This document shows positions 37,028-44,046 of a stretch of DNA of 64,000 bases, piece by piece. Under the pieces are notes generated by a model. The model was given only the letters and a program-made list of their open reading frames with translations. It was not told the DNA's origin and searched no databases. The position numbers and the translations under genes are program-made. The DNA is taken from NCBI RefSeq assembly GCF_000242635.2, contig NC_017770.1, forward strand, positions 4,662,669 to 4,726,668, in the 5' to 3' direction. The stretch comes from Solitalea canadensis DSM 3403. Its GTDB lineage: Bacteria; Bacteroidota; Bacteroidia; Sphingobacteriales; Sphingobacteriaceae. Within the stretch, counting starts at the first letter, position 1; each line of letters starts with the position of its first letter.

Positions 37028-38203
37028 TTATATAAGTTTTTGAAATGTTCTCCACCATCTGTCAGGAACTTCTCCATTGCTTGCAGTCTGATAATCCGAA
37101 TAACTGCAAGGAACCAAGTAAAAGCGTTCATTTTTTGTATTGTTTGGAAAAGGAACCTGCATCCACCATCTCCCGGTTTTCGGGCTTTTATAGAAAATTA
37201 CTTCGTGACTGTCATTGGTAATGAAAGCACGGTACTTGGTCATGTCTTCCGTTGGGTTGAAAGGGTAATCTTGTTTACGATTATAATAACCTTCAATAAA
37301 ACACCAGATCATTTGAGCAATCAAATGTGAGGTTTGTCCGTGACGGTCAAATTTTGGATTGATCTCATAAAATCCAATCGACAGCAATTTGTCGCTCATC
37401 CCTGCATAACGACACATTTGACAAGCCTGCTCACCATAAAACCCGTTAGGTGTTGTATTGGCATTTCCCGGAGCATCGCTTTGGCGAATGGCAGAAATAT
37501 CAAATGAAATCATGTTTGCATTCCGGATAATTGGTTCGGTATTCTGTAAATTTTGAACCATTTCTCCTACACGATGTGTATCGAAATACATCTTATCCAT
37601 CAACCGCAGACTCTCCTGGTTTACAAAATAGGTTTGATAACCAATATTGCTATAGTTGAATAGATTGTTGGGTTCATGAAGAATAATACTGTTTAAGTAA
37701 GATTTAGAATTGTTCTGAAGATCTTCCGCTGCTGCGTCCAGATCAAAATGATTATCGATAGCTACCAGATCTACTCGTTGTTCAATTCCCTCATAAGCGA
37801 GATATTGTGCATAGGTTAGATCTTGCCCACCACCCAAAATAATCGGGACGATATTCAGTTTCATCAACTCTTCGCACACAACTTTGAGGGCAACATAAGT
37901 GTCGCGTACTGATTCACCGGGCTTAATATTGCCAAGATCCACAATGTTACTCTTGAAACTGCCTTCATTTAAAGCATATAAATAGGCTCTGATATGATCA
38001 GGTGCTTGCGAGCAGCCCTCATTATTGATAGAATAACGGTCCTCCTCCACTCCAACCAGTGCCAGGTTAATGCCTTCCAGCTCAGGAAAAGATCCGGGCT
38101 CTTCATAAATAGAAAATACAGCACCAAAACTGGCAGACTGAAATCCCTTTTCAGGTCTTAGCGAATCAAGATTAACGGGAGCTAAAAAGTCGGAAAGGTT
38201 CAT
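37028..38203 (-). CDS. Arginase/agmatinase-fold protein with substituted metal ligands
   Basis: A 391-residue ureohydrolase-fold protein. The fold signatures are recognisable, but two metal ligands are changed. The first His site (normally GGDHS) reads GGGQD with Q127. The second site is kept (D150, H152, D154 in DNHFD). The last site (normally DxD) reads D235-I-S237. By comparison, the hutG at 41367-42428 keeps all of them (H154, D185, H187, D189, D275, D277). Hydrolysis of a guanidino group is therefore doubtful. I recall similar proteins near envelope or secretion genes in Bacteroidota; that role is not established. Confidence 0.8.
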   Translation of the reverse strand: MNLSDFLAPVNLDSLRPEKGFQSASFGAVFSIYEEPGSFPELEGINLALVGVEEDRYSINNEGCSQAPDHIRAYLYALNEGSFKSNIVDLGNIKPGESVRDTYVALKVVCEELMKLNIVPIILGGGQDLTYAQYLAYEGIEQRVDLVAIDNHFDLDAAAEDLQNNSKSYLNSIILHEPNNLFNYSNIGYQTYFVNQESLRLMDKMYFDTHRVGEMVQNLQNTEPIIRNANMISFDISAIRQSDAPGNANTTPNGFYGEQACQMCRYAGMSDKLLSIGFYEINPKFDRHGQTSHLIAQMIWCFIEGYYNRKQDYPFNPTEDMTKYRAFITNDSHEVIFYKSPKTGRWWMQVPFPNNTKNERFYLVPCSYSDYQTASNGEVPDRWWRTFQKLI

Positions 38204-38406: not shown

Positions 38407-39381
38407 ATGATTCTTATTACTGGCGCTACAGGCTTTCTAGGTTCTCATCTTGCGCTTGATCTTATAAATTCCGGACAGAAGGTACGTGCAATTAAACGAG
38501 CCTCCGCTGAAATTCCGGAAAATATTAAACAGCTTGCTATAGAATGGGTAGATGGTGATGTGCTGGATTACTTTTCTCTTGAAGATGCGTTGCAGGGTGT
38601 TTCAAAAGTTTACCATTGTGCAGCTAAGGTAGCCCTCAATCCAAAGTACAAAGCTGAAATGTACAAAACCAATATTGAAGGCACGGCAAATGTCGTTAAT
38701 GCATGCCTTAATATGGGTGTAGATAAATTGGTACATGTTAGCTCGATAGCAGCTATTGGATTTGGTAAGCCTGGTGAAATTATTCATGAGGATCACAAAT
38801 TCGAATATGCGCCTACAAATTCAGCTTATGCGGTTAGTAAGTATGAAAGTGAAAACGAAGTTTGGAGGGGAACTGCCGAGGGACTAAATGCCATTGTGGT
38901 AAATCCGTCAATTATTATTGGAATGGATAATTGGGCTAAGGGAAGTGGCCGGCTTTTTGGGATGATTGATAAAGGCAGTAAAATTTATGCCGAAGGCGGT
39001 TGTGGTTATGTGGATGTACGGGATGTGACTGCTACTATGATCAGACTGATGGAAAGTGATATCATCAATCAACGATTTATTATTAACGGTGGCAATCTCA
39101 GTTTTAAAGAATTGTTTTCCCTTATCGCTAAAAACTTAAATAAGCCAGCTCCATCAATTTTAGTAAAGAAATGGCATCTGTCAATTGGGTGGCGATTAGC
39201 CAAGTTTATTTCATTGATTACCGGGAAAGAGGCTTCGTTAACGAAGGATACAGCCGTTGCTGCACCTGTTAAACAATATTATTCTAATGAAAAATTGCTA
39301 AAGTCGATCGACCACCACTTTATACCTCTCGATGAATCCATTCGTTATATCTGCGAAAAGCAGAAAACACTAAGAGGCTAG
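38407..39381 (+). CDS. NAD-dependent epimerase/dehydratase family protein
   Basis: A 324-residue extended short-chain dehydrogenase. It shows the NAD-binding GATGFLGSH (6-14) and the catalytic YAVSK (Y141, K145), with the conserved serines in HVSSIAAIGF. The substrate cannot be told; relatives act on nucleotide sugars or on flavonoid- or sterol-like ketones. It starts an array of four rightward or convergent metabolic genes. It is cytoplasmic. Confidence 0.88.
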   Translation: MILITGATGFLGSHLALDLINSGQKVRAIKRASAEIPENIKQLAIEWVDGDVLDYFSLEDALQGVSKVYHCAAKVALNPKYKAEMYKTNIEGTANVVNACLNMGVDKLVHVSSIAAIGFGKPGEIIHEDHKFEYAPTNSAYAVSKYESENEVWRGTAEGLNAIVVNPSIIIGMDNWAKGSGRLFGMIDKGSKIYAEGGCGYVDVRDVTATMIRLMESDIINQRFIINGGNLSFKELFSLIAKNLNKPAPSILVKKWHLSIGWRLAKFISLITGKEASLTKDTAVAAPVKQYYSNEKLLKSIDHHFIPLDESIRYICEKQKTLRG

Positions 39382-39487: not shown

Positions 39488-40780
39488 TTGAAGAACCGAT
39501 ATATAATTGATTTCGACAGTACGTTTACTCAAGTAGAGGCACTGGATGAATTGGTAAAGATTTCATTAAAAGGTCACCCTGACAAGGATAAAGTGCTAAA
39601 GCAGATTGAGGATTATACCAATGCTGCAATGGAAGGAAGGATGTCGTTTACTGATAGTTTGCGCGAACGAGTTAAATTACTGGGTGCCAATAGTGAGCAT
39701 CTTCAGAAGTTGGTTAAGGTTTTAAAGAAAAAGGTTTCTTCTTCATTCTCTCGCAATCGAAAATTCTTTGAGAAACACGCCGACGAAGTTTTTATTGTTT
39801 CAGGTGGTTTCAAGGAGTTTATTACTCCGGTGGTAAGCGATTACAAGATCAAATCAGAGAATATTTACGCGAATACATTTGAATTTAACGAACAGGGAAC
39901 TATTATAGGTTACGATATTACCAACCCACTTTCTCAAGAAGGTGGAAAGGTGAAGCTTTTGAAACAACTTAATTGGGAAGGTAATCTTTACGGAATAGGT
40001 GATGGTTACTCAGACTTTCAGTTAAAAGAGTCTGGTCTGATCAAAAAGTTTTTTGCTTACACAGAAAATATTGAACGCTCAAACGTAGTGAAAAATGCCG
40101 ATCACGTTTTACCTAGCTTCGATGAATTCTTGTATGTGAACAACCTTCCAATGGCTATATCGTATCCTAAGAACAGGATATTATGTTTGTGCATTGGCGA
40201 TATTCATGAAGAATCATTGTCAATCTTAAAAAAGGATGGTTTTTCAATCAGACATAAAACATCATTCGAAGAAAAATATGTGGCAGATGTTGGGATGTTG
40301 CTTTTAGGTAACGGTGTAACGGTTGAAAATGAAAAGTTAAGCAGAGCGATTACTTTAAAAACAATTGGTTGTTTGGGAAGCGCCAAAGATAAGATCGATC
40401 TGAACTTATGCACGCGAATGGGCATGGTTGTTTTTGACGACCGCAAAAGCAATCCAAGAAATAGTGAGTTTATTCCTAAACGCATGGCCGATTTCATTAA
40501 TAAAGGCTCAAGCTATTTAAGCTGTAACTTTCCAAATATTCAGTTGTTAAAGCAGGAAAAAGCGCACCGATTGATTCATATACACCATAATGTGCCTGGA
40601 ATAATGGCGCAGATCAATAGTGTGATGGCTGATCATGATATAAATATTTTAGCGCAGTACCTGAAAACAAACGATCAGATTGGCTATGTGATCACAGATG
40701 TTAATACCGAATACGACAAGAAAGTGATTAAGGCCCTGAAAAAGATCGAGCATACAATTAAGTTTAGATTGCTTTATTAA
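39488..40780 (+). CDS. Phosphoserine phosphatase fused to SerA regions, without the NAD-binding domain
   Basis: A 430-residue fusion starting with TTG. Residues 1-225 are a HAD phosphatase of SerB type: nucleophile D8 with D10 (DFDST) and the late motif GDGYSD (171-176). Residues 229-330 resemble the N-terminal substrate domain of SerA (ILCLCIGDIHEESL, then TIGCLGSAKDKIDL). Residues 361-430 are a SerA-like ACT domain (RLIHIHHNVPGIMAQIN). The Rossmann NAD domain, about 180 residues, that should lie between them is gone. I recall full SerB-SerA fusions of about 630 residues in relatives, so this looks like a deletion form. Expected role: serine-regulated phosphoserine hydrolysis. Confidence 0.85.
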   Translation: MKNRYIIDFDSTFTQVEALDELVKISLKGHPDKDKVLKQIEDYTNAAMEGRMSFTDSLRERVKLLGANSEHLQKLVKVLKKKVSSSFSRNRKFFEKHADEVFIVSGGFKEFITPVVSDYKIKSENIYANTFEFNEQGTIIGYDITNPLSQEGGKVKLLKQLNWEGNLYGIGDGYSDFQLKESGLIKKFFAYTENIERSNVVKNADHVLPSFDEFLYVNNLPMAISYPKNRILCLCIGDIHEESLSILKKDGFSIRHKTSFEEKYVADVGMLLLGNGVTVENEKLSRAITLKTIGCLGSAKDKIDLNLCTRMGMVVFDDRKSNPRNSEFIPKRMADFINKGSSYLSCNFPNIQLLKQEKAHRLIHIHHNVPGIMAQINSVMADHDINILAQYLKTNDQIGYVITDVNTEYDKKVIKALKKIEHTIKFRLLY

Positions 40781-40804: not shown

Positions 40805-41380
40805 TTGGAGACAAGAAAAGCCCAGCTCAGGAAATTATTTCTTGAAAAACGCAAAGCATTAGGTGAATCTGAATTCAGGTTGATTAATACAGCTATTCTT
40901 GAGCAGTTTAAACAGATAGATCTTGCTGGAGTTAATGTGCTGCATCTATTTTTGTCTATTGTGGAGAAACATGAGATAGATACCTCCTTGATGGTCGATT
41001 ATCTTCACAAGAAGTATCCTCATATTAAAATAGCTGTTCCACAAAGTAATTTCTCATCACTAACCCTTACTCATTTTTTAATCGATGATGATTTGGTTAT
41101 TGAGAAGAATAATTGGAACATTCCGGAGCCTGTGAGCGGTAACAAAATTAGTCCGGAGAGAATTGATATGATATTGGTCCCTCTGCTGGCGATTGACAAA
41201 AAAGGGTTTCGTGTGGGATATGGGAAGGGGTTCTATGATCGTTTTTTAATCGAATGCCGATCAGATATTAAAACGATTGGTTTGTCTCAATTTGAACCTA
41301 TTGAAAGAATAAATGATACAGACGAATATGATTTTCCATTAAACGCCTGTATCACTCCTTCTGGAATTATTTACTTTTAG
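40805..41380 (+). CDS. 5-formyltetrahydrofolate cyclo-ligase
   Basis: A 191-residue enzyme that returns 5-formyl-THF to the active folate pool as 5,10-methenyl-THF with ATP use. It shows the basic N-terminal start (RKAQLRKLFLEKRKAL, 3-18) and the diagnostic GYGKGFYDRFL (about 140-150). Its size is typical. No ATG fits, so the start is TTG 40805. It follows the SerB fusion by 24 bp, linking serine and one-carbon supply, and its last 14 bases overlap the convergent hutG. Confidence 0.92.
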   Translation: METRKAQLRKLFLEKRKALGESEFRLINTAILEQFKQIDLAGVNVLHLFLSIVEKHEIDTSLMVDYLHKKYPHIKIAVPQSNFSSLTLTHFLIDDDLVIEKNNWNIPEPVSGNKISPERIDMILVPLLAIDKKGFRVGYGKGFYDRFLIECRSDIKTIGLSQFEPIERINDTDEYDFPLNACITPSGIIYF

Positions 41381-42807: not shown

Positions 42808-44046
42808 TTAATATTTTTTACCATTGATAAAAATTGTATCTATATGGTTCGACCCAAACGAATAAGGCATAAAAGTAACTGATGGGATCTCTTTGGTTAG
42901 CATAAAATTAGCTTGTTTTCCTTTAGAAATACTTCCATAAGATGAAGAAAGATCCATTGCGTATGCGCCATTCAATGTGGCAGCATTTATTGCTTCGGCT
43001 GGCAACATTTTCATTCGCATGCAGGCAAGAGCTACTACCAGGTTCATGTTGCCCGAAGGTGTGGTACCCGGATTAAAATCAGATGCCAACGCAACCCCAA
43101 GTCCTGCATCTATCATGCCGCGTGCATTGGCAAAAGGAATATTAATGAACAATGAACATGAGGGTAAAAGCGTTGCAATTGTTTCCGATCCTTTCAAAGA
43201 TTCGATCACAGCATCATCGGTAACCTCTAAATGATCTACAGAAAGAGCACCTTTTCTGACACAAGCCTGTACCGCTCCGGTATTCGTAAATTGGTTAGCA
43301 TGAATCTTTGCTTTTAACCCGTATTTGGCTCCCGCGTCAATTATTTGTTCAGTCTCTTCTATTGAAAAATAATTTTGTTCACAAAAGGCATCAATATAAT
43401 CTGCCAAGCCTTCATCAGCTATTTGTGGTAAAAGTTTAGTTATTAGTAAATCGATATAACCTTTGTGATCTTGTTTGTATTCTGCAGGAAAAGCATGAGC
43501 CCCTAAAAAGGTAGCTTTTACAGGAATAGAAAAGTTTTCTTTTAGCTTACGGATAACTCGGAGCATCTTTAACTCTGCGTCATAGCTTAAACCATATCCA
43601 CTTTTAATTTCAATGGCTCCCGTTCCCAGGCCGATTAATTCATTTAGCCTTTTAGCAGCCGAATTATATAACTCTTCTTCTGGTGTATGTGCCAGCTTTC
43701 TTGCTGAATTTAAGATTCCTCCACCTGCCGCTGTTATTTCCTCATAGGTTTTGCCTTGAATTTTCATCAGAAACTCTTCCTCTCTTGAGGCGGCAAATAC
43801 CAGGTGAGTATGTGAGTCGCACCATGTTGGAAGAATTAATTTTCCGGTGGCATCAATAACTTCATCAGCATTTTCAAAGGTTGCAGGGTCTAGTTCGGTC
43901 ATTAAACCAAAATCTGCGATTTTTCCATCGGTTACTTTTAACCAAGCATTTTCAATGGAGGGTAAGTCAGTCATTTCTTTCCCCTGTAACAAGCGTTTAT
44001 CTGGAGATTGAATGCCGCAAAGTTGTTTTATATTAATGATGATCAT
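42808..44046 (-). CDS. hutI: Imidazolonepropionase
   Basis: A 412-residue amidohydrolase that opens the imidazolone ring to N-formimidoyl-glutamate, the third step of histidine catabolism. Zinc-binding motif HTHLVF (near 79-84) and the later EIKSGYGL and HANQFTN segments are diagnostic. The length is typical of HutI. It is the first gene of a leftward row with the small metalloprotease-like gene and hutG. A 7-bp repeat array lies 12 bp upstream of its start. Confidence 0.96.
   Translation of the reverse strand: MIIINIKQLCGIQSPDKRLLQGKEMTDLPSIENAWLKVTDGKIADFGLMTELDPATFENADEVIDATGKLILPTWCDSHTHLVFAASREEEFLMKIQGKTYEEITAAGGGILNSARKLAHTPEEELYNSAAKRLNELIGLGTGAIEIKSGYGLSYDAELKMLRVIRKLKENFSIPVKATFLGAHAFPAEYKQDHKGYIDLLITKLLPQIADEGLADYIDAFCEQNYFSIEETEQIIDAGAKYGLKAKIHANQFTNTGAVQACVRKGALSVDHLEVTDDAVIESLKGSETIATLLPSCSLFINIPFANARGMIDAGLGVALASDFNPGTTPSGNMNLVVALACMRMKMLPAEAINAATLNGAYAMDLSSSYGSISKGKQANFMLTKEIPSVTFMPYSFGSNHIDTIFINGKKY

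Follow-up and report, generated by a model that had tools for sequence, protein, structure and literature searches.

The 430-residue protein encoded at positions 39488–40780 (+) of the window, the 64,000-nucleotide stretch of the Solitalea canadensis DSM 3403 genome analysed here, is probably a phosphoserine phosphatase derived from a SerB–SerA fusion, from which the NAD-binding domain has been excised and in which serine feedback acts through a salvaged ACT domain.

Domain architecture of the reduced protein

The ORF starts with TTG (its relatives use ATG, GTG or TTG at or near this position) and spans 434 codons from stop to stop; there is no longer frame. Profile searches matched residues 5–182 to HAD-IB/SerB models (TIGR01488, E = 5.9e-20, above cut-off; TIGR00338, E = 3e-18, short of its curated cut-off), residues 236–324 to the SerA substrate domain 2-Hacid_dh (PF00389, E = 5.8e-7) and residues 362–425 to an ACT domain (PF22629, E = 1.2e-12), and positions 307–410 of the E. 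coli-type SerA model PRK11790 matched residues 327–430 (E = 1.8e-46). The same searches returned no match to the NAD-binding domain PF02826. These results agree with the initial annotation of the sequence, which had described an intact N-terminal SerB HAD phosphatase, a SerA substrate domain at residues 229–330 and a SerA ACT domain at 361–430, with the Rossmann domain missing. Among PDB sequences, phmmer matched the first part to the phosphoserine phosphatases 3kd3 and 1nnl and the last to E. coli SerA (1yba/1psd), and in Foldseek the nearest solved structures were E. coli SerA and phosphoserine phosphatases.

Alignment with 39 SerB–SerA fusions of ~600–630 aa and with E. coli SerA (BLASTP, MAFFT) revealed a clean gap, common to the relatives, at the junction between residues 325 and 326 (Table 1). 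The missing stretch comprises ~193 residues of the NAD-binding domain (E. coli SerA ~112–304), which is exactly the Rossmann domain inserted in the discontinuous SerA substrate domain. As had been read from the sequence, the short linker FINKGSSYLSCNFPN aligns with the SerA stretch immediately before ACT. An AlphaFold2 model (53-row alignment) had a mean pLDDT of 80, and of about 90 over residues 231–310; in it, the last strand of the orphan domain leads into helix 325–339. The individual domains are predicted to fold on their own; given a pTM of 0.51, their mutual arrangement and any ACT–phosphatase contact are unsure.

Table 1 Features of the reduced gene and its immediate neighbours, in window coordinates
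Feature	Position	Strand	Basis
NAD-dependent epimerase/dehydratase family gene, conserved upstream neighbour	38407..39381	+	PF01370, E 3e-31; homologue in 74/75 related loci
SerB-type HAD-IB phosphatase domain	39488..40153	+	residues 1-222; TIGR01488, TIGR00338, PDB 3kd3/1nnl
Phosphatase motifs			D8/D10 (DFDST), E17, R61, S105 (SGG), K154, D172/D176 (GDGYSD)
Orphan SerA substrate-binding domain, N-terminal segment	40172..40462	+	residues 229-325; PF00389, alignment with fusions and E. coli SerA
Deletion junction	40462..40463	+	between residues 325/326; BLASTP and MAFFT against 39 fusions and E. coli SerA
C-terminal segment of SerA substrate domain (helix 325-339) and linker to ACT	40463..40564	+	residues 326-359; PRK11790, AlphaFold2
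SerA-type ACT domain	40565..40777	+	residues 360-430; PF22629, phmmer to 1yba/1psd, H/N/N conservation
5-formyltetrahydrofolate cyclo-ligase gene, 24 bases downstream	40805..41380	+	PF01812, E 9.5e-25

Conservation of the catalytic and serine-binding residues

Residue conservation was scored in 132 proteins, 39 of them fusions and 93 of the reduced form. All of the reduced proteins kept the phosphatase residues (D8, D10, E17, R61, S105, K154, D172 and D176) unchanged; among the fusions, the one departure was E17D, in a single protein. H366, N368 and N386, which make up the serine site and are equivalent to His344, Asn346 and Asn364 of E. coli SerA, were invariant in 132/132. At the position of the 3-phosphoglycerate-binding Arg60 of SerA, every reduced protein inspected carried G, A, D, Q or P, and the other SerA catalytic residues (R240, E269 and H292) fall inside the deleted part. 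Judged on its sequence, a protein with neither the NAD domain nor these catalytic residues cannot be a dehydrogenase. The Gly336–Gly337 hinge of E. coli SerA is missing, with KAHR in its place; the active fusions also lack the hinge. A lineage-specific EEKY motif at residues 261–264 of the orphan domain, conserved in 84–91 of the 93 reduced proteins and variable in fusions, may represent a new contact.

Divergence of the substrate domain relative to SerB was 1.82 (CI 1.48–2.22) in the reduced family, 0.73 (0.59–0.88) in active fusions and 2.38 in the fusions of family f11, in which the dehydrogenase is dead. The corresponding values for ACT were 1.22 (CI 0.90–1.59), 0.79 and 1.12, with wide intervals and a slight overlap between 1.22 and 0.79. 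Based on these ratios, the substrate domain appears to have been released from catalysis and ACT to be at most mildly relaxed, some relaxation in the reduced family being possible. Within the family, conservation was 0.768 for ACT versus 0.783 for the catalytic domain.

Distribution, gene neighbourhood and pathway context

The 430-residue form was present, with an open frame each time, in 37 of the 38 Sphingobacteriaceae (f1) genomes searched, spanning the genera Solitalea, Pedobacter, Mucilaginibacter, Sphingobacterium, Daejeonella and Hufsiella; a clean deletion common to relatives, which the initial annotation had named as support for its reading, is thus what we found. Matches in other families of the class were fusions, mostly of 627–630 residues, that still contain the dehydrogenase domain.

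The host genome is a single contig of 5.2 Mb, with 89% identity to Solitalea agri and S. longa. Its serC gene (NCBIfam SerC models above cut-off) is followed, after 38 bases, by a gene for a 316-residue SerA that matches PF00389 and PF02826 only and has no ACT. A search of the genome found the 430-residue protein as the only SerB-like phosphatase; a second SerB-like match sits within an 862-codon frame which, judged by its length, is most likely a P-type ATPase. The presence of a sole SerB-like gene alongside serC and serA lends indirect support to phosphoserine phosphatase activity. Type III SerA, which is devoid of ACT, is not serine-regulated (PMC6300728), so that the pathway shows no serine feedback by an ACT domain unless the one described here acts. 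GapMind reports no gap for serine in a Pedobacter strain with fitness data, DapE being the only table entry found for it; this agrees with a functional SerB in that strain.

Further upstream in the window lies an arginase-family gene (37028–38203, −), with homologues in 74/75 related loci. The cyclo-ligase neighbour occurs in only 3/75 of these loci, its adjacency not being kept in most relatives. At 41367–41380 the cyclo-ligase gene (+) overlaps tail to tail, by 14 bases, with a gene (−) for a 353-aa protein that by sequence is likely arginase-family and formimidoylglutamase-like, and a likely imidazolonepropionase gene is located further along (42808–44046, −). Elsewhere in the host genome, a D-lactate-dehydrogenase-like gene is split into two frames of 163 and 127–140 codons (C1:369130–369694; L025, L026) and is probably a pseudogene, with an intact relative at C1:1775681–1776247.

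Phylogenetic origin and repeated loss of the dehydrogenase

In a tree built on SerB and ACT columns, the 430-residue clade nested among the ~630-residue SerB–SerA fusions of other Bacteroidota. The f1 proteins formed one clade (support 99), whose sister group was the f11 fusions with a dead dehydrogenase (support 82). Because of this nesting, and because the gap removes the exact inserted domain of a discontinuous fold, the reduced form was ruled out as the ancestral state in favour of deletion. Together with the exact Rossmann excision and the complete serine site, the tree supports the proposal in the initial annotation that the protein is a pruned former SerB–SerA fusion. The comparison adds to that reading the ACT-less SerA beside serC, a probable second deletion and intermediates with a dead dehydrogenase.

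An apparently independent second NAD-domain deletion was observed in family f14, as a 424-aa protein with 45–46% identity (L114:881–2152 in genome G037, and L155 in G077). In G077 both the reduced-form frame, which is in two parts, and serC are broken, suggesting sequencing errors in that assembly. The f14 protein was placed elsewhere in the tree on a long branch, and a single deletion shared by f1 and f14 cost 22.9 log units (AU p = 0.022), a rejection that merits moderate trust given this long branch; the NAD-domain deletion probably happened twice. A single dehydrogenase loss for all damaged lineages was also rejected, at a cost of 70.6 log units (AU p = 4.8e-5). One genome of family f35 (G364; L154) carries a 447-codon frame of the reduced type that nested with Pedobacter (support 90). 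This genome has no short SerA of the ~316-residue type, but a 389-codon SerA, seemingly ending in ACT, lies after its serC; its reduced-type gene is a probable horizontal transfer.

The fusions themselves form a graded set. R60, R240, E269 and H292 are all kept in 31 of the 39 (families f2, f4, f10, f12, f15, f44, f45, f47, f52 and f66), R60, R240 and H292 are lost in seven (6/6 in f11 and one in f40), and R60 and R240 in one (f24). The dead fusions (L140, L146, L148, L136, L132 and L153 in f11; L121 in f40) have ~600 residues, with GxGxxG mostly kept, and from their residues are apparent pseudo-dehydrogenases joined to an intact phosphatase and ACT. The ACT site is retained in f11, f40 and f24 despite the dead or damaged dehydrogenase.

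A separate SerA of ~316 residues without ACT, usually adjoining serC, was found in f1, f11, f14, f24, f40, f4, f10, f12, f44, f45 and f52; within f1 it occurs in 37/38 genomes, missing only from an assembly that is 71% complete. None was found in f2, f15, f47 and f66, where weak matches (E 1e-46 to 1e-50) were the fusions themselves. All four of these families keep the fused dehydrogenase intact, so every loss observed was in a family that has a substitute SerA. At the family level this amounts to 5/11 versus 0/4 (Fisher p = 0.15), a difference whose direction fits but which is not significant. The comparative series runs from an intact fusion, through a fusion plus a separate ACT-less SerA next to serC, to a dead dehydrogenase and finally to deletion of the NAD domain.

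Three further arrangements were seen. In genome G336 (f11), whose fusion is dead, the searches turned up no serC and no short SerA; this may reflect an assembly gap or pathway loss. In genus g71 of f12, a separate SerB (233–236 codons) neighbours a SerA with ACT (376–414 codons) at L156, L157 and L158; the pair looks like a split fusion, since the tree puts these SerB proteins inside the fusions. Finally, a fusion on a very long branch in f2 (L127, genome G103) has altered phosphatase motifs (DQT, E17D, SYS) and intact dehydrogenase residues. Its phosphatase may be degenerate, which would make it a mirror image of the reduced form.

Taken across these lineages, we regard as evenly balanced the proposition that fused SerA was independently turned into a purely regulatory phosphatase module in several Bacteroidota lineages (dead in f11 and f40, excised in f1 and f14), each with a separate ACT-less SerA, and that ACT-based serine feedback was thereby transferred from the first step of the pathway to the last. 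If so, domain excision would have rewired allosteric control repeatedly, and the intermediate stages would still be alive.

Proposed mechanism and alternative explanations

In the scheme that we favour, serine synthesis would have come to start with a separate ACT-less SerA beside serC, leaving the fused dehydrogenase redundant. Its NAD domain would then have been excised, with the flanking halves of the substrate domain closing up into one continuous domain, to give a product composed of phosphatase, inert substrate domain and ACT. Serine would bind at the ACT–ACT dimer interface through H366, N368 and N386, and the resulting change would reach the phosphatase domain by way of the scaffold formed by the substrate domain and of the conserved linker ISYPKNRI (residues 224–231), slowing phosphoserine hydrolysis. 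A direct allosteric link between serine and the phosphatase, as proposed in the initial annotation, is likely on this view. ACT-based pathway feedback would in this way sit on the last step instead of the first. Dimerisation, serine binding, inhibition as the direction of the response and the path of the signal are the parts of this scheme that we infer.

Counting against it are the raised ACT divergence, the missing Gly336–Gly337 hinge, which the active fusions also lack, and an analogy. ACT domains can persist without regulating: in mammalian PGDH the ACT domain is unresponsive to serine, although the binding residues have been lost there (PMC6300728). The reduced protein might alternatively be a structural relic, an unregulated phosphatase in which the orphan domain and ACT merely hold a dimer or slowly decay, an explanation that we consider unlikely. 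It would accommodate the fast evolution of the orphan domain and the rise in the ACT/SerB divergence ratio from 0.79 to 1.22 after the deletion, and assembly could be the sole role of the ACT dimer interface. A mere interface, however, needs no ligand residues, and the three serine contacts have not changed in any reduced protein or fusion; ACT is also nearly as conserved as the catalytic domain and has been retained in five families with a lost or damaged dehydrogenase.

Improbable, in our view, is regulation in trans, with the ACT-bearing phosphatase binding the ACT-less SerA like a regulatory subunit and so providing serine feedback on the first step. Such a partnership would suit the finding that, apart from the horizontally acquired G364 copy, a separate ACT-less SerA occurs wherever a family has its fused dehydrogenase deleted or dead, and the conserved new EEKY motif could be a docking surface. 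Nevertheless, serA adjoins serC rather than the gene for the 430-residue protein, and the substrate domain is not the usual SerA subunit interface: SerA subunits contact each other NAD domain to NAD domain and ACT to ACT. Activity on another phosphatase substrate, or a broken remnant or assembly error, would be in keeping with the TIGR00338 (serB) score of 66–68 bits (curated cut-off 144), and is very improbable. That cut-off was reached by 0/11 Bacteroidota genomes tested, showing that the model does not cover this branch, and intact fusions score equally low; the PSP-type residues E17 and R61 are kept, the genome has no second SerB-like phosphatase, and the intact frames in 37 family genomes rule out a pseudogene or assembly error. 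Serine feedback through the inherited ACT domain is the most likely explanation.

Significance and comparison with known systems

The lineages described here make up a natural series from a bifunctional enzyme to a one-activity enzyme with an inherited sensor, each stage being alive in some lineage. The reduced form predicts that a common environmental (soil/freshwater) bacterial family exerts its control of serine synthesis on the final, irreversible reaction, which would matter for metabolic models. For annotation, the reduced proteins match phosphoglycerate dehydrogenase models and yet, on sequence grounds, cannot be dehydrogenases.

In the literature searched, we found no paper describing the reduced SerB–substrate domain–ACT form. 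ACT-bearing phosphoserine phosphatases and SerB–SerA fusions are already known; what appears new, within the literature covered, is this variant and the route to it. The ~630-aa fusions of other Bacteroidota share the order SerB, SerA substrate domain, ACT, with identities to the 430-residue protein of mostly 42–51% over residues 1–325 and 46–67% over residues 326–430, but keep the NAD-binding domain, 31/39 with all dehydrogenase active-site residues. Type II SerA (E. coli PGDH, 1psd/1yba) has in common the H344/N346/N364-type ACT and the substrate domain fold, whereas the reduced protein lacks the NAD domain, Arg60 and the dehydrogenase function and is fused to a phosphatase. The chimeric glycerol-3-phosphate dehydrogenase of Dunaliella (6iuy, judged by its entry name) also joins a SerB-like HAD domain to an NAD dehydrogenase, but one of an unrelated family, intact and with no ACT match.

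A parallel in working principle is mycobacterial SerB2/SerB (MtSerB2, MaSerB), ACT-bearing phosphoserine phosphatases inhibited by serine (PMC10564941). There too a phosphoserine phosphatase is covalently joined to ACT, and inhibition would follow the same principle here. MtSerB2, however, has a pair of ACT domains preceding the phosphatase and lacks a SerA substrate domain, as against one C-terminal SerA-type ACT brought there by deletion, and its proposed serine-binding residues (E33, R103 and T136) differ from H366, N368 and N386. By this analogy, the 430-residue protein would resemble SerB2 in its working principle rather than being a member of the SerB2 group.
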